NCBI GenBank assembly: GCA_934045905.1
Contig: OW203769.1
Span: forward strand, 17,887,705-17,951,704
Source of the DNA: Leuctra nigra
Lineage: Eukaryota; Arthropoda; Insecta; Plecoptera; Leuctridae
Direction: 5' to 3'
DNA length: 64,000 nt
The position numbers were made by a program, and so were the translations under genes. This document shows positions 20,046 through 55,850 of the stretch, piece by piece. Positions within the stretch are counted from its first letter, which is position 1; the number at the start of each line of letters is the position of its first letter. The notes beneath the pieces are model-generated. The model was not told the DNA's origin, did not search any database, and saw only the letters and a program-made list of their open reading frames with translations.

Positions 20046-21435
20046 GACTGAGAGAATACCACGAAAAAAAAACAGTCAGGAAGTCGGATGCATTGGGCAA
20101 TAGATTACTGGGCATTTTACCTATTAGCTGATTTGTTTGTGATATTTTGTTATTTATTACGTTATATTTATGATTCATGTGACAATTTTTCTACTTTCAA
20201 TTTATGTTGAAGACAAATTACTTTTGAAAAATAAGAAACTTGGAGGTAGGCATCTAAAAGAGTGATCACTGTTTCGCGAGTTCACTTTTCGGGCTAGGGA
20301 TTCGTTTTACCAAATCAGTATTTTGTCTGACATTTCTTATTATTTGGAATCGTGGAAAACAGTATAAAACATTTCGGCATTGGGACAGTTATATTGCAAT
20401 GATATTATCACTATTATAGGCTTATAATGCGTAGTATATTTTATGTGTAATTATATTGTTATTTGTAATTGTGAACGAGCTGTAGTCGTTTGTAATGTAC
20501 AACGATTATTGATAAGCCAGTCGTAACAATGTTTGTACCGTTAAGTAATTTTCATTGCCCTATAAAGGGGCGATTGCAAATAAAAACATCGAATTATTGA
20601 GTCAGCGCATAGCTGAAATATTAATATTTTGCCGTGTTGATAATACATTTTCGAATAAAAGCGTATTTCTTTTATTGGAAACATTGTGTTAATTTCTTCT
20701 TTCATGTGGCCAGATTACTTAGGTACTTTTTTCCTCGATAAAACTCGGTAGAATCAATTAGTTTGGGTAACTGAACTAATTGTGTCAATAATTGATACAA
20801 AGGTTTCTATGTAAATTTGATATTTGATATTTTTTTTTTTTTTTTTTTTGATATTTTTTTTTTTTTATTAGGCATCTTACAGTTGTTTATGCACGGTGGT
20901 AAGGAATCCTACTACATGCTAATGTGCACTACATAATGGCACTTTGTTAATTATATTACAGTCGACATAATAATAATTCTTGGTAATGATAATTTCTTAA
21001 TGACTAACAATTCCATATCCAAGAATAGAATATGACAGTAATAATAAAAGTATTAATAATTCAGTAAAACATTTGACAGAGCAACAATAAACCTATGTGG
21101 ATATGCCACTCTATACAACAGTCTAGAATTCAGTTCATGAATACTTTCCATAATCAAGAGTCAAAGAACAGGAACATACATCTTAATAAGTTATAATAAT
21201 AATATAATAGTTATAATAATAATACCTTAATACCTACAAGTCATTTCAGCAAGTCAATAGTCAGGTCAATAAAAATTATAATAATATAAATTAATATCGC
21301 ATTAATAAATCAATTCAGCAATCATCAGCAATATCATCAAGTAACATTTCTTATGTACGCAATAAATTTAAATTTAACTATTTACAATAATTTTACCATC
21401 ATTCATACACAGATTAATACACAGATTTTCTACAT

Positions 21436-24357
21436 TCATTCATCAGTCTCTTCAGGAGGGCCGACCAGCATTCTGTGTATGGTGGCTCGGAATTCCTTGG
21501 TGGTCAGCCCTTTCGGAATCAGGCCGCAGTCCAGTTTGTTCCAGTCCCGAGCGGTGCGGGGAATGAAGGAATATTTACCGCAGTCTTTCTTCGTTCCCGG
21601 CTCGTGTAGGAGGCCACCTGTACCAGCTCTGCCCTCGTACCGTCGCGGGATGACCTGGCTGTTGATTTCCTGCCATCCCTGTACTCCCTCTCTTGCTCGG
21701 TACAGGTTACACAGGCGAGATTCAGTTCTTCTGAGCTCCAGCGAGTCCCATCCAAGCTCCTCCATCATATCGCTGGGGCTCTCCCACACCTTGCAGATCT
21801 CACCTTTCAAGTTCCTTTCTGTCCTCCATTTCCTTGTCCTACCGGTCACTCTCCTGGCTGCTATTCTCTGTGTTTTTTCTAGCGCCCTCTTCTCACCCTC
21901 CTTATGGGGATCCCAGACCGCTCCTCCATATTCCAGCAAGGGCCTGATGAGTGTTTTGTAGGCTTGGTTCTTTGTTTCAGATGATGTTCCGTGCAGGTTC
22001 CTCATGACGAAATTTGTGCATTTGATTCCTTTCGCAGAGACTCTACCGACTTGCTCTTTCCACTCCAATTTTCTATCTAGCCATACTCCCAGATATTTAT
22101 AACCCTCGCTGCATGTAAGGGTATGGTTGCTTATCTCGTAATGAACTATTCTAACTTCTCGCTTTCTGGAGAAGGTAACAACTTCACATTTTTCTAGGTT
22201 TAGGCACATTTTATTCGCTGTCATCCAGTGTTGAATGACATGCAAGTCGTCCTGCAGCTGCTTTACACTGTCATCCCCTTTGATGTTTGCGTAGACCACG
22301 CAGTCATCTGCAAAGAGCCGACCTTTCGATTTTATGTTCTTTGTCAGGTCGTTGATATATATCAGGAAGAGTTGCGGCCCGACTACGCTGCCTTGTGGAA
22401 CCCCCGAGGTGACGCTCGCACTTTCTGAGAGTTGGTCAGCTATCTTGACCCTTTGGGTTCGTCCCGTGAGGAAATCCTGCACCGTTCTCACCACCGCTTC
22501 GTCCTCAATGAGCGCAGCAAGCTTGGCAACGAGTATTCCATGGTCGACCTTATCGAATGCCTTTCGCATATCAAGAAAAATGGCATCAACCTCTTCATCA
22601 GCTTCAAGGGAGTTGGATAGATCTTGGACTAATCCTGTCAGTTGGGTCTCGCAAGAGTGCCCAGCCCTGAAACCGTGCTGTATGTTGGTAATTACCTCTT
22701 CAGCGTTCAACACTTGCCAGATATACCTCACCAGGAGTTTCTCAAAAACTTTGCAGACTGCTGAGGTGAGGCTTATCGGTCGATAGTTGGTGAGCCGACA
22801 TTTCTCGCCACCCTTGAAGACCGGAATTACGATGGCCTCTTTCCAGAGAAGGGGTACCCTTCCGTCTCTCAGTATGCGCTTGAATAAGTATTCCAGGTAG
22901 ATGGCAATGTCCAGGTCGCAGATTTTCAGCAGTGTGTTCGTTAGTCCGTCGCCTCCAGGCGCTTTACCGTTCTTTAGCTTCCTGATAACGTGTAGGATTC
23001 CCGTGGAATGCACTGCCATCGGAAACGATCCTCTTCTGGAACAGCACAGCGCTGGGGTCGCAGATGGAGCTGAAGATGACGTGTTAAAGACCTTGGCGTA
23101 AAATGAATTTAGAGCGTTTGCCTTGTCCTTGCTGGAAGCTATCTCATTTCCATCGGTGCCAATTAACGTGGGAATAACTCGGTCTCCTCCCTTCTGCTGT
23201 CGGATGTGCTTGTACAGTCTGGCCCAGCCCCCTCCATCATCTTCCTTGCTGAACATACTCCTCATGTAAAGATCCTTTGCCTTGGACTTGGCCCTGTTGA
23301 GCTCAGCTGTGGTCGAATACAGTTTTGCCCTCTGCGATCTGTTTCGTCTGCTTACGTTGAAAAGGACCCTGGCTTTCCTCTTCAGCTTCTTAATACTGGT
23401 GTTATAGTAGGGAGAGTCTTGGTTCGCCTTCACTCTCTTCTGCGGGATGTGCTTCTTCATCGCTGCGGACACTATGCATAGCATAGACTCCCACATCGAA
23501 TCAATGCTTGAGTGGTCAGCTAGGGCCCATGTCTGAAAGCTCGTCCAGAGCTCTTCCCTCAGACCCCTTATGTCAGCCTTCTTGTAGCACCACAGTGTAG
23601 CTTCTTCCTCTGTACTCTTCTGGAGTTTGTTCGCCGTTAGGATGTCCACTACCACTGCTCTATGGTCACTGAGCTCCAGGTCCAGGACCTCACTCCTACA
23701 GATAAGGTTGTGGGGCTTCACCAGGACCACGTCTAGAAGGTTGCTTCTGTCGGCTGTGATGGCTCTCGTACCCTCCGAGACAGCTTGTTCGTATCCCAAG
23801 TTCATGATCCTGGACACCATTTCTTGCTTGCCCGAGCCTGCGCCAGTTGTAACTCCCGGGATCCATTTCACATTTGGGAGATTCAGGTCTCCGGCAATGA
23901 TGCTCCGGTGTCGCGCTCCAAAACAACTTAGTTTCGTCTCGAGCTGTCGAAGGAATTCAGTGGCACCTTCCCCACTTCTGTACACCCCGATGATGTCGGT
24001 GACTTCACCTGTGGGGCGGGTGGCTCGTACACAGAGAATCTCCATTTCCTCGTCGGCCCACATTATCTTTCCAGCCTCGTCGGATGATGTGCCTATGAGT
24101 ACACCTCCCCCATGTCGATCTCTGTCCCTCCTGTGGACGGCAAAGCCCGGCACACTGACCTCACTGTCTTTTATGTCAGCACACAGCCATGTTTCGACTA
24201 CAACAAACACATTGGGGCTGCATGCCTCGACAATTGTTCTAAGCTTGTCGATTTTGTGGACAAGACTTCTTGCGTTGACAAGCAGGATGCGCAGTATGTG
24301 AGATGCAGATTTCGATGCTGGAGGGCAAACATATAGCACGTTCCCCATGTCCTTCAT
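21436..24357 (-). CDS. LINE ORF2: APE endonuclease and reverse transcriptase
   Basis: 973 residues counted from ATG at 24357-24355, which overlaps the ORF1 stop as ATGA. It would nick target DNA and copy the element's RNA there. The endonuclease domain (about 22-240) shows NARSL (N29), ETW (E55), HGGGV, GDLNLP (D157), LLDVVL and the SDH motif (230-232). The reverse transcriptase (about 500-760) shows NYRPISL, HGFRAGHSCETQL, FLDMRKAFDKVDH (D596), SGVPQGSVVGP and the catalytic FADD (682-685). A thumb with YLGVWLDRKLEW and a C-terminal region follow. The motif set fits the CR1/L2/Jockey group; CR1-like is preferred because ORF1 carries a PHD finger and an SGNH domain. A longer reading from TTG 24417 is possible but less likely. 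All catalytic residues seen are intact. Confidence 0.93.
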   Translation of the reverse strand: MKDMGNVLYVCPPASKSASHILRILLVNARSLVHKIDKLRTIVEACSPNVFVVVETWLCADIKDSEVSVPGFAVHRRDRDRHGGGVLIGTSSDEAGKIMWADEEMEILCVRATRPTGEVTDIIGVYRSGEGATEFLRQLETKLSCFGARHRSIIAGDLNLPNVKWIPGVTTGAGSGKQEMVSRIMNLGYEQAVSEGTRAITADRSNLLDVVLVKPHNLICRSEVLDLELSDHRAVVVDILTANKLQKSTEEEATLWCYKKADIRGLREELWTSFQTWALADHSSIDSMWESMLCIVSAAMKKHIPQKRVKANQDSPYYNTSIKKLKRKARVLFNVSRRNRSQRAKLYSTTAELNRAKSKAKDLYMRSMFSKEDDGGGWARLYKHIRQQKGGDRVIPTLIGTDGNEIASSKDKANALNSFYAKVFNTSSSAPSATPALCCSRRGSFPMAVHSTGILHVIRKLKNGKAPGGDGLTNTLLKICDLDIAIYLEYLFKRILRDGRVPLLWKEAIVIPVFKGGEKCRLTNYRPISLTSAVCKVFEKLLVRYIWQVLNAEEVITNIQHGFRAGHSCETQLTGLVQDLSNSLEADEEVDAIFLDMRKAFDKVDHGILVAKLAALIEDEAVVRTVQDFLTGRTQRVKIADQLSESASVTSGVPQGSVVGPQLFLIYINDLTKNIKSKGRLFADDCVVYANIKGDDSVKQLQDDLHVIQHWMTANKMCLNLEKCEVVTFSRKREVRIVHYEISNHTLTCSEGYKYLGVWLDRKLEWKEQVGRVSAKGIKCTNFVMRNLHGTSSETKNQAYKTLIRPLLEYGGAVWDPHKEGEKRALEKTQRIAARRVTGRTRKWRTERNLKGEICKVWESPSDMMEELGWDSLELRRTESRLCNLYRAREGVQGWQEINSQVIPRRYEGRAGTGGLLHEPGTKKDCGKYSFIPRTARDWNKLDCGLIPKGLTTKEFRATIHRMLVGPPEETDE
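24354..24357 (-). promoter_or_regulatory. ATGA stop-start overlap between LINE ORF1 and ORF2
   Basis: ORF1 ends GAA TGA and ORF2 begins ATG AAG within the same GAATGAAGG, sharing two bases. Overlaps of this kind are known in some LINEs to allow translation termination-reinitiation. That use here is inferred. Confidence 0.6.
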
Positions 24358-27050
24358 TCCCTCGTCCTCCACCAGTTTCCCGGGGAACTTGGTCTGTGGG
24401 TAAGCTGTTTGAAGCAAGTCAGCCAGTGGTGAACGCCTGCTTTGTTTAACTTAGAACGGTCCTGGCACCACATTTTTTCCTCCATAGAGAGGCCAGGGTC
24501 GAGGAATGAATGTCCCCTACTTCCTGACTCATCCCTGATTATGAAGTTGGAAATATTACACGCTTCTCTACCTAGGTCAGCCCGAGGGGGAAGCCCACTG
24601 GTGCATATTACGGCACCTCTGAATTTGTCTTCTACCATCCTTAAAAGATTGCGGTAATCATTGGCCAGGTTGGCTTCATCTATTCCTGCCAGTAGGTCAT
24701 GTGTTCCTACCTGTAGGAATACATTGTCATACGTCTGCCTGGGATCCAGTCCATTCAAGTGGGCCGTGATTTCACTGGTACGGATCCCGGGAAGGATCCA
24801 GGCTTCGTCTTCTTTCCATTGGTAAAAGTTATGTGTGTTGGAAATCGTATCATCCGAGATAATTATACTACGTTTCCTGTTGAGGATAGGCTTTGGAGTT
24901 GGTACTGGTGGGGCCGGGGGACCATACGGAGGGAATGGATTGGTATTGGAGGATGCTACTGGCTGTTGTGAGTGTAGCTGTGGTACTTGTGAAGGACTGG
25001 TTTGCGCCTGCTGAATAATCGGCATCCTGGGGCCCCAGGGGGGCGTTAGTGAGGTGAGAAGGTCCTCTTGTTGGTGGTGGTGATTTTTTACCAGCGTGGG
25101 CCACATTTGTCTTGCCGCACTTGTCAGCTGATGAATTGCTTGTGGCTGAGGGATGATGTTCCTAGATGGTATGAAGGTCCTTGTTTGTATAGGGGCTTCA
25201 CCAGGGCGGGGTCCCTTTTGAGTTGACCGCTTCTTTCTCCCGGGCTTGATCAACTGCGCTGTTCCACTATGCTGAGGTTGGAAGAGTGGTGACGTTCTCA
25301 GTGTCGTCTGCTGCTGCGTTGACTTGGGCTTCGGTGAACCTGGTGGTTGCTCCAGTGGTAAAGGCAGTGTTGTATGCTGAAGGGGCTCGGGCAGGGGTGA
25401 TGTTGTCGGCTGCCGCTGCTCAACTTCGGTGTTGCTTGCTAAGGAGTTGCCTACTTGAGAGGATCTGGCTGTCGGGATGTTGGTGACTTCCCCCACTGGG
25501 ACGTTCTGCAGCTGCTCCTGTCCCTGCTCCCTGTCCTCACCAGGGGGACGTGTTGGTGGAACCTGCATCTCTGATTGTAGCTGCGCAGCATGAATCGAGG
25601 GTTGTGGTAACGGCATCGACTGCTCAAGTATCCTACGCAGGAGTGACTGATGGGTAGGGACTGGGACTGGCTGCAGCAAGGGCATTGGCTGCGGCTGTGA
25701 AGACTGTGTAGCGAGGGGTCTGGTCGATGTATTTGTCTTCCTGTTCTTCCCTGCTGTCCAGTTGGTGCTCCTGCTTGTCTGCAGACCCAGTCCGGCTTCC
25801 ATGCTGTAGACTTGTATGTTTATGTCCTCGTCTGCAAAAACCTCTTCGATTGTGCTTTTCACCAGCGGCCAGCCCATTCTGTCAAGCCCACATCCTATTA
25901 ATGGTATGGCCAGTTTTCTGATGGATTTCTTCACGCACGTCTTTCTCAGGTTTTTTATTGCGTTAACAAAGTCGAAGAGATATGGTTTCTGATAGTATCG
26001 TGGTTTGGTGATCATATGGAGGATCGTCCTATTCTCAACCACTTGCACTGCTACCTCCCCCACAGTCTTCCGTTGTGTCCGCAGGGCATCAGTGCCTCCA
26101 TATTTGGTTTTAATTACCGCAGCAATACCCTCCGACATCTTAAAATCCGCCGATACACAGTGGGCCAGAGCGTAATCCTCATCTGAATCGAAAAGATTTC
26201 CAGCTATTTCCTCCAAATTCAGTTTACGCTTAGGGTCTGACTGCTTTATTGCATTGATGATTTTCGGGGTTGGTGATGCTATGTTCTTATGGGAAGGGGG
26301 TGTTGCAGTATCTTTAGGAGTATGTGATGTTACTTGTGATGTATGTGGTGTTGCAGTATCTTTAGGAGTATGTGATGTTACTTTGATATCACTGGTGGTA
26401 GCGGTGAAGTGAACCAGAGCGTTACGTAGGTCCCTTACTTCCATGGCTAGGGCTTGGAGGGTGCTCTTTGTACGCTCTTGTTCCTGACTGTTATTTTGGA
26501 GGATTCCTTCAAACTTTGATAAAGAACTCATCCACATACCTGAGGCGCCAGTTTCTGTTTTCTTATCACGATGGAGAACACTACATGGTTTACACCACCA
26601 CTGCGATTCTCTTATAGAGCTCAGCACGGCATACTGTTTGTCTGTGATGTTAATGCAGATTGAGTGAGCCCACTTGTTACAATAACCATCACAGCCTACT
26701 GCTTTATCGGATTCATTGACTTCTGTTTTACAAACAAGGCAATATGTAGACTGAGCGGAATTTGTATCTACATCCTTGGAAACTACTGTAGGTGCGCCTA
26801 TTGCATCAGTATTGATCTGTTCTGCAGTACTCTTCAGTGTCCTCCTAACAGCACCTCTACCATTCCCATTCCTAGGGTCTATGGTGTTTAGTTGTGGCTT
26901 GTTACCAACTATTTCTACTACTGGTTCTTCATTGGTCTTAGCTTCATTGTGATCGGCGTGTTTAACCCCACTTTCACTTTCCGTCACACGAGATTCTAAA
27001 CAGTCATTCGTACTCTGCTGTGTGTTATCTAATTCTACATTAGAATACAT
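24354..27050 (-). CDS. LINE ORF1: PHD finger, TARG1/OARD1-like macrodomain and degenerate SGNH domain
   Basis: 898 residues from ATG 27050-27048 to TGA 24354-24356. A PHD-type finger spans C104-C156 (CLVC, then GYCNKWAHSIC, then WWCKPC). A short helical stretch at 175-215 may be a coiled coil. Residues about 278-420 form a macrodomain of the TARG1/OARD1 type: NLF, LAHCVSADFKMSEGIA, KYGG, GEVA, HMITK and GCGLDRMGW. The two residues used by TARG1 to release ADP-ribose, Lys and Asp, are present as K349 and D390. Residues 430-720 are Pro/Gln-rich and disordered. Residues about 725-890 resemble the SGNH esterase of CR1 ORF1 (QVGTHDLL, KLNKAGVHHW), but the GDS serine and DxxH histidine appear replaced. 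As ORF1 protein it probably binds RNA or chromatin. The macrodomain role is inferred. Confidence 0.85.
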   Translation of the reverse strand: MYSNVELDNTQQSTNDCLESRVTESESGVKHADHNEAKTNEEPVVEIVGNKPQLNTIDPRNGNGRGAVRRTLKSTAEQINTDAIGAPTVVSKDVDTNSAQSTYCLVCKTEVNESDKAVGCDGYCNKWAHSICINITDKQYAVLSSIRESQWWCKPCSVLHRDKKTETGASGMWMSSLSKFEGILQNNSQEQERTKSTLQALAMEVRDLRNALVHFTATTSDIKVTSHTPKDTATPHTSQVTSHTPKDTATPPSHKNIASPTPKIINAIKQSDPKRKLNLEEIAGNLFDSDEDYALAHCVSADFKMSEGIAAVIKTKYGGTDALRTQRKTVGEVAVQVVENRTILHMITKPRYYQKPYLFDFVNAIKNLRKTCVKKSIRKLAIPLIGCGLDRMGWPLVKSTIEEVFADEDINIQVYSMEAGLGLQTSRSTNWTAGKNRKTNTSTRPLATQSSQPQPMPLLQPVPVPTHQSLLRRILEQSMPLPQPSIHAAQLQSEMQVPPTRPPGEDREQGQEQLQNVPVGEVTNIPTARSSQVGNSLASNTEVEQRQPTTSPLPEPLQHTTLPLPLEQPPGSPKPKSTQQQTTLRTSPLFQPQHSGTAQLIKPGRKKRSTQKGPRPGEAPIQTRTFIPSRNIIPQPQAIHQLTSAARQMWPTLVKNHHHQQEDLLTSLTPPWGPRMPIIQQAQTSPSQVPQLHSQQPVASSNTNPFPPYGPPAPPVPTPKPILNRKRSIIISDDTISNTHNFYQWKEDEAWILPGIRTSEITAHLNGLDPRQTYDNVFLQVGTHDLLAGIDEANLANDYRNLLRMVEDKFRGAVICTSGLPPRADLGREACNISNFIIRDESGSRGHSFLDPGLSMEEKMWCQDRSKLNKAGVHHWLTCFKQLTHRPSSPGNWWRTRE

Positions 27051-27059
27051 TTTAGTAAG

Positions 27060-28280
27060 AAGTAGGTACTTACAATGTAGTACACCTCAGAATTTACAAC
27101 TTAATTATGAAAGAACCTAGTAAAACTTGCTGGAGTGACAGGAGTCCAGTGTCAAGCCCAGTCATCTCTGGGCAGTCATTGGCTCCTCTCTTTTGTTCGG
27201 AAGATCCGATGATTGTTGTAAGACATGAATTATATGAATTGCAATTAATTTAGCACCTTTGGTGTAATTATTGCAAGATAAAGCATTCAAGTTGAATTCG
27301 GTACATGAGGAGCAGAATGCCGGTAGTCAATTAGGACTAAATAATTATTCAGCTCAAAAGCACTTCATCCCTCATTCATTGAACAATATTTGTAATGGTG
27401 TTGAATACGTTGTACCTCAATAAAACTAAATTTGTTAACATCAGTCAAACAAAAGGCAATGGTTAGATCTTGATTGCATCATTCCAGAAGGGTGCAAGGA
27501 CGAGACAATTGAGAAAATTGACTTCCGGCCTTCTACCTCTGAGTTACAGAAATATGAACAAATATGTATTATAATGTGCCTCTGCATCCAGAGTTGAATC
27601 ATTGTCCGGGCTCTTCCGAGATTCTTGAAATGTGAGATCACAGCTGCATGTTTGGGTTTACTGTCAACTACCTGCCTGTTTACGACCTGCCAGACCAGCC
27701 GTGACTGTTTATGAGTTTGTGAGACCGAGAGACAGAGATAGATACATCTCCCTCTCTCTCTCGCACTCACACAAAGAATGTTACAACCGGAGAAATAGGT
27801 TTGCTTATAAAAGCAATACATCCGTGCTCAACGAGCTCTCTGAGAGCACTGCGCTGATGGCGGTAGAACTTGGCATCATATAGGTAAAATCCGCCTTAAG
27901 TATAGGATTCTTAATATTTTTGCCTTCCTGGCTGCCAGGAATGGAATGTTGATGCAGAATAAAGGTCACTGTGTTGAGAGGGGGCCGCTACTACCTGCTC
28001 AGTCCATCCTTGTCTCTCTATTGTTCTTCTCCCTCACCGAGGGAGGTTTGGGTAGAGGGGTCTTGAATGTCTGCACTGCAACCCTACCCTCTCTTTCACT
28101 CGACTTTTAGCTTGGTCAGAAGCAACAACTCACAGAATTCATAGCCGTTGCAATGTGTTAGTAAAGATAATTGGATTGTTAATAATAAGTCAACACTTAT
28201 TTTAATTGTCTTTTTAAAGAAAATTAATACAATGTTTAATCCAGTGATAAGTTAATAACATTTAATTCATTATTATAAAC
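27060..28280. other. LINE 5' region and non-coding sequence
   Basis: 27505-27560 repeats the segment GAGAAAATTGACTT then CGGCCTTCTACCTCTGA found at 19345-19395. 27720-27770 is CT-rich. No gene is supported. Confidence 0.5.
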
Positions 28281-29205
28281 TGTGTCCTCTATCGCAACGT
28301 GTCCGTCTTCTAATGTAATTGCTGTTTGTCTTTACAGAAGAAGTTAAACTGTGTCCTCAATCGCAACGTGTCCGTCTTCTAATGTAATTGCTGTTTGTCT
28401 TTACAGAAGAAGTTAAACTGTGTCCTCAATCGCAACGTGTCCGTCTTCTATGTTATTGTGTTTGTATTTACAGAAGGAGTTAAACTGTGTCCTCTATCGC
28501 ACGTGTCCGTCTTCTAATGTGAAGTGTTTGTCTTTACAGAAGAAGTTAAACGGTGTCCTCAATCGCAACGTGTCCGTATTCTATGTTATTGTGTTTGTAT
28601 TTACAGAAGGAGTTAAACTGTGTCCTCTATCGCACGTGTCCGTCTTCTAATGTGAAGTGTTTGTCTTTATAGAAGAAGTTAAACGGTGTCCTCAATCGCA
28701 ACGTGTCCGTCTTCTTTGTGATTGTGTTTGTATTTACAGAAGGAGTTAAACTGTGTCCTCTATCGCACGTGTCCGTCTTCTAATGTGAAGTGTTTGTCTT
28801 TACAGAAGAAGTTAAACGGTGTCCTCTATCGCACGTGTCCGTCTTCTATGTTATTGTATTTGTCTTTACAGAAGGAGTTAAACGGTGTCCTCAATCGCAA
28901 CGTGTCCGTCTTCTTTGTGATTGTGTTTGTCTTTACAGAAGGAGTTTAACTGTATCCTCTATCGCACGTGTCCGTCTTCTCTGTGATTGCTGTTTGTCTT
29001 TACAGAAGAAGTTAAACGGTGTCCTCTATCGCACGTGTCCGTCTTCTATGTTACCTATTGTATTTGTCTTTATAGAAGAAGTTAAACGGTGTCCTCTATC
29101 GCAACGTGTCCGTCTTCTATGTGATTGTGCTTGTCTTAACAGAAGGAGTTAAACGGTGTCCTCTATCACAACGTGTCCGTCTTCTATGTGATTGTGTGTC
29201 CGTCT
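28281..29205 (+). repeat. 65-69-bp minisatellite, about 14 units, intron-3'-end-like
   Basis: The unit reads GTCCTCTATCGCAACGTG, TCCGTCTTCTAATGT, then TGTTTGTCTTTACAG, AAGAAGTTAAAC. Copies begin with GTCCGTCTTC at 28301, 28370, 28439 and 28504 and so on to about 29203. Each unit contains a CTAAT branch-point-like word, a pyrimidine tract and CAG, the order seen at intron 3' ends. The open frames through it are repeat artefacts. Confidence 0.85.
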
Positions 29206-33496: not shown

Positions 33497-34310
33497 CGCC
33501 ATCACAATTAAAATCTCATGGCTAGCCACTAGTGGGCCATGAGTGTCTTGCCTTCAATAAGCCATGCATGGCTAGCCACTAGTGTGCCGTGAGTGGGCCA
33601 TGACTGTGCAGCGTAGTGATGGAAATTCCATGGCTAGCCACTAGTGGGCCATGAGTGTCTTGCCTTCAATAAGCCATGCATGGCTAGCCACTAGTGTGCC
33701 GTGAGTGGGCCATGACTGTGCAGCGTAGTGATGGAAAACTCATGGCTAGCCACTAGTGGGCCATGAGTGTCTTGCCTTCAATAAGCCATGCATGGCTAGC
33801 CACTAGTGTGCCGTGAGTGGGCCATGACTGTGCAGCGTAGTGATGGAAATCCCATGGCTAGCCACTAGTGGGCCATGAGTGTCTTGCCTTCAATAAGCCA
33901 TGCATGGCTAGCCACTAGTGTGCCGTGAGTGGGCCATGACTGTGCAGCGTAGTGATGGAAAACTCATGGCTAGCCACTAGTGGGCCATGAGTGTCTTGCC
34001 TTCAATAAGCCATGCATGGCAAACCACTAGTGTGCCGTAAGTGGGCCATGACTGTGCAGCGTAGTGATGGAAATCCCATGGCTAGCCACTAGTGGGCCAT
34101 GAGTGTCTTGCCTTCAATAAGCCATGCATGGCTAGCCACTAGTGTGCCGTGAGTGGGCCATGACTGTGCAGCGTAGTGATGGAAAACTCATGGCTAGCCA
34201 CTAGTGGGCCATGAGTGTCTTGTCTTCAATAAGCCATGTATGGCTAGCCACTAGTGTGCCATGAGTGGGCCATGACTGTGCAGCGTAGTGATGGAAAACT
34301 TATGGCTAGC
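33497..34310. repeat. 112-bp satellite with dimeric higher-order structure
   Basis: GCAGCGTAGTGATGG occurs at 33608, 33720, 33832, 33944, 34056, 34168 and 34280, exactly 112 bp apart. Each unit holds CATGGCTAGCCACTAGTG twice. The bases after GGAAA alternate between ATTCC/ATCCC and ACTC in successive units, so a 224-bp dimer was the later unit of amplification. Confidence 0.9.
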
Positions 34311-34844
34311 TACTAGTGGGCCATGAGTGGGCCATGATTGTGCAAAAAACCGTTACACAAGTCGTCCCGAGGATTCGGCGCCAAATTTTAAGTTTGAATT
34401 TACCTATGTACAATTAACTTTTACTGATCTGAGATTATTCTTTGAAAAGCTTCGGATCAAAACGAAACTATATTGCAATTTTGTATACTGTTTTACTGTT
34501 TTTGTTTTACTGTTACTTGTTTGTTACTGGGGTTAATTACTTGTACCTTGTTTTACTGTTACTGTATTACTGTTTTTGTATACTGTGCGTATACTGTGAT
34601 TGTTTAACATTGGTCATATTTATTTTGCTTCAACACCTAAATTTCAACTTGTTGTCTTCAAAATAAGTATATCCAAAATACTACATCTACTCCACTATGT
34701 AAAAGACATCAAGCGTTTGGTAAAAACACAATCCTGATTGTAGTTCAACACCGGTTTGAAATATATTGCAAGAGGTAGCGGGAGGGAACCCAGGGCAAAC
34801 TGTAGGTATAGGCGTTTCAGCGCGCTAAATCACATCCGTCGCCG

Positions 34845-55214: not shown

Positions 55215-55850
55215 GTGCACTCCTTGTGTGTATACAATAAACATGCACGTCGGTCAACACCGGCCCGGTGTCGTTGCGCGTGTAGTTTTTCGGTATACAA
55301 GAAACATACACGTCGGTCAACACTGGCCCGACATTGTTGCGCGTGTAGTTTTTGGTATACAAGAAACATGCACGTCGGTAGACACTGGCCCGGTATTGTT
55401 GCGCGTGCAGCTTCTGGTATGCAAGAAACATGCACGTCGGTAGACACTGGCCCGGCATTGTTGCGCGTGTAGTTTTTGGTATACAAGAAACATGCACGTC
55501 GGTAGACACTGGCCCGGTATTGTTGCGCGTGCAGCTTCTGGTATGCAAGAAACATGCACGTCGGTAGACACTGGCCCGGTATTGTTGCGCGTGCAGCTTC
55601 TGGTATGCAAGAAACATACACGTCGGTAGACACTGGCCCGGCATTGTTGCGCGTGTAGCTTTTGGTATACAAGAAACATGCATGTCGGTAGACACTGGCC
55701 CGGCATTGTTGCGCGTGCAGCTTCTGGTATGCAAGAAACATACACGTCGGTAGACACTGGCCCGGTATTGTTGCGCGTGCAGCTTTTGGTATGCAAGAAA
55801 CATACACGTCGGTCGACATTGGCCCGGTATTGTCGCGCGTGCAAATAAAT
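55215..55850. repeat. 62-bp satellite, about 10 units, in element IV
   Basis: CACGTCGGT recurs at 55246, 55309, 55371 and 55433 and on to about 55808. Each unit reads GACACTGGCCCGGTATTGTT, GCGCGTGCAGCTT, then GGTATGCAAGAAACATG. Because 62 is not divisible by three, long artefact frames run through all phases on both strands. Confidence 0.9.

Follow-up and report, generated by a model that had tools for sequence, protein, structure and literature searches.

At this locus a LINE retrotransposon encodes, in its ORF1 protein, a macrodomain resembling the host ADP-ribose hydrolase TARG1/OARD1, which raises the question of whether the domain truly belongs to the element and, if it does, what the element uses it for. 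A sequence-only reading of the window (the whole stretch of 64,000 nucleotides of Leuctra nigra DNA analyzed here) had proposed both the domain and a role in reversing host ADP-ribosylation. Our preferred reading, which we hold tentatively, is that the ORF1 protein of a CR1/L2-like LINE carries a captured TARG1-type macrodomain that is used on ADP-ribose marks. The features on which the argument draws are the following, in window coordinates.

20846..27164, minus strand: whole LINE element, with its 5' end near 27,164 and its 3' end near 20,846 in an A-rich/AAATATC-type tail; two near-identical copies (L045 and L046) share these ends
24354..27050, minus strand: ORF1 (898 aa, PHD-macro-SGNH), an uninterrupted frame from the ATG at 27,050 to the stop at 24,354
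26583..26741, minus strand: Pygopus-like PHD finger, residues 104-156 (Pfam PHD, E 1.9e-6, passing its cut-off)
25803..26219, minus strand: TARG1/OARD1-type macrodomain, residues 278-416 (phmmer, AlphaFold2, and Foldseek)
26004..26006, minus strand: codon of K349, equivalent of the TARG1 catalytic lysine (alignment to OARD1)
25881..25883, minus strand: codon of D390, equivalent of the TARG1 catalytic aspartate (alignment to OARD1)
24498..24782, minus strand: SGNH/GDSL-like domain, residues 757-851 (falling short of the Pfam cut-offs for GDSL, at E 0.0017, and for OSK, at E 0.013)
21436..24450, minus strand: ORF2 open frame with AP endonuclease and reverse transcriptase (RT), overlapping the 3' end of ORF1

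Searched with phmmer against PDB chains, residues 278-416 matched human OARD1/C6orf130 at an E value of 2e-28, far outside what chance would give; five OARD1 sequences fell between 2e-28 and 3.7e-28, and the next macrodomain chain, 5m31, reached only 0.0059. The Pfam Macro match in ORF1 was weak (E 0.0011, below its cut-off). An AlphaFold2 model built on a 34-row alignment had a mean pLDDT of 90.5 and a pTM of 0.86, and Foldseek ranked eight TARG1 chains ahead of the DarG macrodomain, with TARG1 4j5s_C as the top match (E 1.5e-15; rmsd 1.5; TM score of 0.87 by query length and 0.95 by target length). The structural comparison with OARD1 that the sequence-only reading had suggested therefore gives a predicted macro fold superposing on TARG1 4j5s. 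In the alignment to TARG1, K349 falls on the lysine of the ITK motif and D390 on the aspartate of GCGLD, positions that we take to be K84 and D125 of TARG1. In excerpts of a review (PMC7050489), Lys84 of TARG1 is named and residue 125 is printed as Glu. The motif layout proposed from the letters alone (NLF at 285, AHCVS at 296, MSEGIA at 305, KYGG at 316, ITK at 347, and GCGLDRMGW at 386) is present in full, and K349 and D390 had been numbered correctly as the catalytic equivalents; of the proposed placement at 25780..26220, the macrodomain itself stands and the bounds do not, as the matched part is 25,803-26,219. With OARD1 as its nearest solved macrodomain by sequence, a predicted macro fold, and both catalytic positions kept, the ORF1 macrodomain is of the TARG1 type. 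It shares with TARG1/OARD1 the fold (predicted here), 40% identity, and the equivalents of the catalytic Lys and Asp, and it differs in being fused into a LINE ORF1 protein, where PHD and SGNH-like domains flank it, whereas host TARG1 is small and free-standing.

The extent of the element was defined by its copies. L045 and L046, on contigs C3 and C4, are 99.86% and 99.94% identical to the window from 20,846 and 20,861, respectively, to 27,164; similarity ends beyond those bounds, and the flanking sequences of the window copy, L045, and L046 are all different. As the alignments end there, the LINE is ~6.3 kb long, begins with a leader of ~0.1 kb, and ends in an A-rich repeat tail. No clean target-site duplication was found at the window copy, and L046 shows a possible short one that is indistinguishable from the 5' sequence common to L045 and L046. 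A 67-bp tandem array at 28,276-29,197 was considered as a 5' UTR and rejected, since the copy alignment places it outside the element. Two other copies, L002 and L005, have a common repeat flank.

The window LINE is CR1/L2-like (Jockey superfamily), a clade name that rests on architecture. ORF2 matches Exo_endo_phos_2 (E 1.6e-9) and RVT_1 (E 5.9e-33) in Pfam, so that the AP endonuclease and RT of the Jockey type are present there, together with a PHD finger over its cut-off and a weak SGNH domain in ORF1; no RNase H family appeared among the Pfam matches to the element frames at E values up to 1. The PHD region matches Pygopus PDB chains from E 2.2e-8 (phmmer), and the SGNH-like domain has a weak match (E 0.017) to 4c1b, the ZfL2-1 ORF1 esterase. 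An N-terminal PHD, a C-terminal SGNH/esterase-like domain, an APE-RT ORF2, and a short A-rich repeat tail are thus what the element has in common with CR1/L2 ORF1 types of the Jockey superfamily. A survey of ORF1 proteins (PMC4120745, in excerpt) distinguishes PHD, RRM, CCHC, Tnp22, esterase, and zf/lz types and confines the esterase type to vertebrate groups; the text of that survey contains the word "macro" zero times, whereas the window ORF1 has a macrodomain.

A search of the genome (536 Mb in 144 contigs, nearly all of it in contigs C1-C13 of 26.8 to 68.1 Mb) with the ORF1 protein returned 81 matches. Six copies of the window's own family, family A, span the full 898 aa at 99 to 100% identity (four of them without stops, including the window's own), and a further copy covers residues 48-898, in addition to partial ones. 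Eight family A copies hold the macrodomain; seven of them, on seven contigs, encode exactly the same protein sequence for it, and we conclude that the family has been mobile recently with the domain on board. The remaining one, L008, is broken and has two macrodomain residues changed. K349 and D390 are unchanged in all eight, so the neutral substitution at these positions that would have spoken against the original proposal is not seen in family A. That proposal had also held that the domain is an integral part of an intact ORF, between the PHD finger and the SGNH-like domain, and had named its absence from all other copies as a refuting outcome; the domain does recur, in the LINE family itself and in sister families, in one frame and in the same order. 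At least four PHD-macro LINE families are present in the genome. The PHD-macro-SGNH order recurs in family B, whose ORF1 has ~803 aa, and in family C, with ~780 aa, and family D (874-905 aa) has PHD-macro; their ORF2 proteins are 46 to 56% identical to that of the window, and the macrodomains of families A to D are 46 to 58% identical to one another. In a tree of 61 domains, these macrodomains form one clade (support 100/93), which is consistent with a single acquisition before the four families split. L011 and L012 (ORF2 77% identical, ORF1 without a macrodomain) were considered as a sister family lacking the domain and were rejected, as they appear truncated: their mutual homology starts within the repeat linker.

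Judging from an alignment of families A, B, and C inspected by eye, the SGNH-like neighbor appears to have lost its catalytic activity in all three. A Ser-Asp-His triad and an oxyanion Asn are listed for the ZfL2-1 esterase in excerpts of PMC3905857; in these families, Lys or Arg stands in place of the His and His or Gln in place of the Asn, and family A has Asp where the Ser would be, so that the residues of an active esterase are not retained.

Within families, too few changes were found for a dN/dS check, which is uninformative because the copies are nearly identical. Between families A to D, pairwise macrodomain comparisons gave pS values of 0.70 to 0.93 (near saturation), pN values of 0.24 to 0.36, and pN/pS ratios of 0.30 to 0.51, with bootstrap upper bounds of 0.39 to 0.68; by these substitution ratios, the macrodomain is under purifying selection between the families. 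The lowest ratio, 0.30, belongs to the C-D pair, and it is in these two families that catalytic residues have gone: D390 is deleted in family C and is Gly in family D, K349 is Arg in family D, and the GCGLD ADP-ribose loop is altered in family C. Constraint despite the loss of dyad residues implies that hydrolysis is not required in all relatives and makes binding without hydrolysis a live alternative; no other result speaks as strongly against a reading based on enzyme activity alone. Among 39 sampled element macrodomains, 13 of which come from one Gypsy clade, the lysine is kept in 38, the aspartate in 36, and both in 36.

All 12 host PARP-domain matches exceed the cut-off; some are probably exons of a single gene, so the number of genes is lower than 12. 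In vertebrates, ADP-ribosylation serves as an antiviral mark. Serine-linked ADP-ribose, the main PARP1/2 mark made with HPF1, is not known to be a TARG1 substrate, which counts against the eraser reading. According to excerpts of PMC7050489, acidic residues and nucleic acid ends are the sites that TARG1 frees of ADP-ribose, and RNA ADP-ribosylation may, by way of speculation, aid the recognition of transposon-derived RNA. In the scheme that we favor, the ORF1 protein, as part of the LINE RNP, would carry an ADP-ribose-binding domain to the element RNA, to the element's proteins, and to the nicked target site. There the domain of families A and B would hydrolyze the mark, and that of families C and D would perhaps only read it. 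The macrodomain could then remove mono-ADP-ribose placed by host PARPs on acidic residues or on nucleic acid 5' or 3' phosphates, with the result that the RNP would not be marked for restriction or the integration intermediate would not be blocked; the hydrolase activity, the substrate, and the benefit to the element are what we infer here. Erasure of the mark could also harm the element, because in human cells L1 integration is aided by PARP1/2, which work at the integration sites (PMC8535693, in excerpt).

That last point also fits a different function, which we consider rather unlikely, in which the domain is a reader and not an eraser: it would tether the LINE RNP to chromatin or nicks that bear ADP-ribose, i.e., to PARP-marked repair sites, much as the ALC1 macrodomain does and alongside the PHD histone reader, with hydrolysis incidental or lost. 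Two sister families without the aspartate, one of them without the lysine as well, keep the domain under constraint, the adjoining PHD finger is of a chromatin-reader type, PARP1/2 at L1 nicks are described as favoring integration (PMC8535693), and the ALC1-like class to which TARG1 belongs contains both readers and erasers (excerpts of PMC7050489). However, families A and B retain the lysine and aspartate, as do nearly all of the other sampled element domains, which goes beyond what pure binding would demand, and in family C the ADP-ribose loop itself is altered.

The domain is widespread in other elements of this genome. Queries with two OARD1-like proteins (best 150 matches each) and with ORF1 yielded at least 189 distinct TARG1-like macrodomain places (150, 34, and 5 rows joined, a lower bound, with the best candidates scored), of which 182 lie inside open frames of at least 300 aa; among the 150 macrodomain matches listed, 143 have no internal stop. 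Same-strand macrodomains lie no more than 5 kb upstream of at least 30 of 46 LINE RT places (46 of 47 rows were used, the one dropped being a second piece of a copy) and of at least 10 of 37 Gypsy RT places (37 RT rows of 74, the other 37 being integrase-side pieces). Sixteen of the 46 LINE and 27 of the 37 Gypsy RT places have no nearby macrodomain among the matches listed, so the domain is not required by every element; within those 16, L015 and L019 do hold macrodomain pieces, and L011 and L012 are truncated. The frames at L047, L050, and L051 encode a retropepsin followed by a macrodomain. The L050 type (1638 aa) and the L051 type (2128 aa) have an RT downstream in a frame of equal length, and no RT was matched for the L047 type (2,265 aa). 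The L049 frame has a SAP-macro arrangement, and L048, L052, and L053 are repeat-rich frames with a macrodomain; repeat-rich macrodomain frames measure 799, 724, and 663 aa. No host OARD1 gene was recognized among the matches listed.

Similar proteins occur in other insects. In a protein database search, precomputed domain annotation shows RT, integrase, or both in all 13 matches besides the query. P0002 has its macrodomain after RNase H and ahead of the integrase zinc domain, and P0007 has it ahead of the integrase and after a stretch that, by eye, is the end of an RNase H, so that Gypsy-type elements have it in two places, after the protease in this genome versus after RNase H in the aphid type. 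Named sources of such element proteins are Cinara and Uroleucon, which are aphids, and Athalia, which is a sawfly. In P0012 from Planococcus, a mealybug, the macrodomain is at the C terminus of an RT protein with a LINE-like look, and P0003 is a macro-GDSL protein resembling a LINE ORF1 (both labels are inferred). The record of P0014 already bears an automatic label, "Integrase ... Macro domain". Another protein search gave 11 matches, of which at least three (P0004, P0006, and P0010, from thrips) look like host genes.

The number of captures was addressed with the 61-domain tree, in which 21 domains come from this genome (11 from longer loci, including that of the window, and 10 alone), the Mytilus protein P0026 was left out as partial, and "host" rows are labeled by their record names (OARD1, macro domain protein, or unnamed or uncharacterized protein). 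P0009, from Periplaneta and labeled host, pairs with a LINE-type protein, and its label is uncertain. AU tests rejected a single clade for the 18 Gypsy domains (p-AU 0.003) and for the six PHD/GDSL LINE domains (p-AU 0.007), both rejections being weakened by the choice of groups after the tree was seen and by the shortness of the domain. A single clade of all 39 element domains was not rejected (p-AU 0.052), and we therefore do not claim independent capture by every class. The two rejections, together with the two Gypsy positions, suggest that the domain was captured more than once or passed from element to element, as far as the domain sequences can tell.

This distribution bears on a further alternative, in which a captured host domain persists as a nucleic acid-binding or folding module with no role in ADP-ribose chemistry. 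The macro superfamily includes nucleotide and nucleic acid binders (excerpts of PMC7050489), the degenerate-looking SGNH neighbor could have been repurposed likewise, and catalytic residues are lost in families C and D. We nevertheless think this improbable: the same TARG1 subtype is common to LINE and Gypsy elements, which place it differently, and the presence of both catalytic residues in 36 of the 39 sampled domains is hard to explain without such chemistry. The occurrence of a TARG1 domain in several kinds of retrotransposons hints that ADP-ribose tagging is something that these elements must handle. It is possible, and we offer it with more reserve than the reading of the window element, that CR1-like LINEs, Gypsy elements (at two polyprotein positions), and other multicopy elements repeatedly captured or exchanged host TARG1 as a counterdefense, which would imply that insects and related animals restrict retrotransposons through ADP-ribosylation, in a way not yet described, and that TARG1 is the eraser the elements require.

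Very unlikely, in our view, is an antisilencing function, by which the hydrolase would reverse mono-ADP-ribosylation of corepressors at heterochromatin and so ease transcriptional silencing. The PHD finger adjoins the macrodomain, and SIRT6 silences L1 in mammals, including human L1, by ADP-ribosylating KAP1 (PMC4695847, in excerpt), but this basis is a review statement on mammals. That the domain is a host OARD1 exon inserted by chance into a single LINE copy, or an assembly artifact, has next to no probability and is refuted by copies on many contigs with the domain in one frame and with differing flanks and by other families with the macrodomain between PHD and SGNH, nothing having been found in its favor.

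Elements that carry, amplify, and constrain a TARG1 domain offer a direct way to ask if LINE RNPs or integration intermediates receive ADP-ribose marks, and the dyad-less sister families C and D offer a natural comparison for the payoff of erasing versus reading such marks. Whether hosts use ADP-ribosylation against their own retrotransposons is the question that these elements address. Among the matches listed from openly licensed papers, no description of a macrodomain in a LINE ORF1 or an insect Gypsy element was found. Fish epsilon-like endogenous retroviruses with macrodomain ORFs (Basta et al. 2009, cited in PMC4977317, in excerpt) are likewise retroelements with a macrodomain, and they differ in being vertebrate retroviruses that carry it in additional ORFs. 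Coronaviruses and alphaviruses resemble the window element as mobile parasites with an ADP-ribose eraser for which a counter-PARP role has been proposed; this parallel with viral anti-PARP macrodomains remains an analogy. The viral domains are of another subclass, the alphavirus ones (chikungunya, VEEV, and Mayaro) coming lower in the Foldseek ranking at 12 to 15% identity. The catalysis of viral macrodomains differs from that of the TARG1 type. Prior art thus consists of fish endogenous retroviruses and RNA viruses, and the domain is here unusually abundant and spread across more than one element class. The nearest other natural fold is the DarG macrodomain (5m31; Foldseek E 1.2e-9, 23% identity), which reverses DNA ADP-ribosylation (excerpts of PMC7050489) and differs in being bacterial and paired with the DarT toxin. 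Related macrodomains also occur in viral contigs, with 128 relatives in IMG/VR.

The catalytic His is missing from the SGNH-like domain of the LINE ORF1; in family A, to which the window copy belongs, the Ser is absent as well.

24498-24782, minus strand: SGNH-like domain of ORF1, with weak matches to the Pfam GDSL and OSK models

The match of the window copy to the OSK (Oskar) model is weak (E 0.013); in family C, a sister family of PHD-macrodomain LINEs, the same model (E 0.00084) matches better than the GDSL model. The missing residues, together with the weak OSK match, hint that the ORF1 domain, like that of Oskar, is non-catalytic and perhaps binds RNA.

TARG1-like macrodomains were also found elsewhere in the host genome. 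In three Gypsy-type frames (L047, L050, and L051), a retropepsin is followed by the macrodomain, after which L047 carries an array of approximately 10-residue repeats, and a further Gypsy-type frame of 1,746 aa (L062) has Asn at the position of the catalytic Asp. Three repeat-rich frames of 663 to 799 aa (L048, L052, and L053) each contain a macrodomain with the loop ACGxD, in contrast to GCGLD, and many places score the same as this type among the matches listed. A single frame at L049 combines a SAP domain with the macrodomain; at least 11 more places on many contigs share its macrodomain score among the matches listed, with frames mostly of 545 to 580 aa, and the SAP domain itself was observed only at L049. 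Beyond the host, 128 viral-contig stretches in IMG/VR (loci L064 to L143) encode relatives of the macrodomain, the top one having 43% identity to the query.

Tandem arrays were identified in the window.

28276-29197: 67-bp units, 13.7 copies (alternatively a 133-bp period)
33511-34329: 112-bp units, 7.3 copies, 96% matches
55230-55843: 62-bp units, 9.9 copies, 92% matches

The 67-bp array is located upstream of the LINE, beyond the limits of the element.
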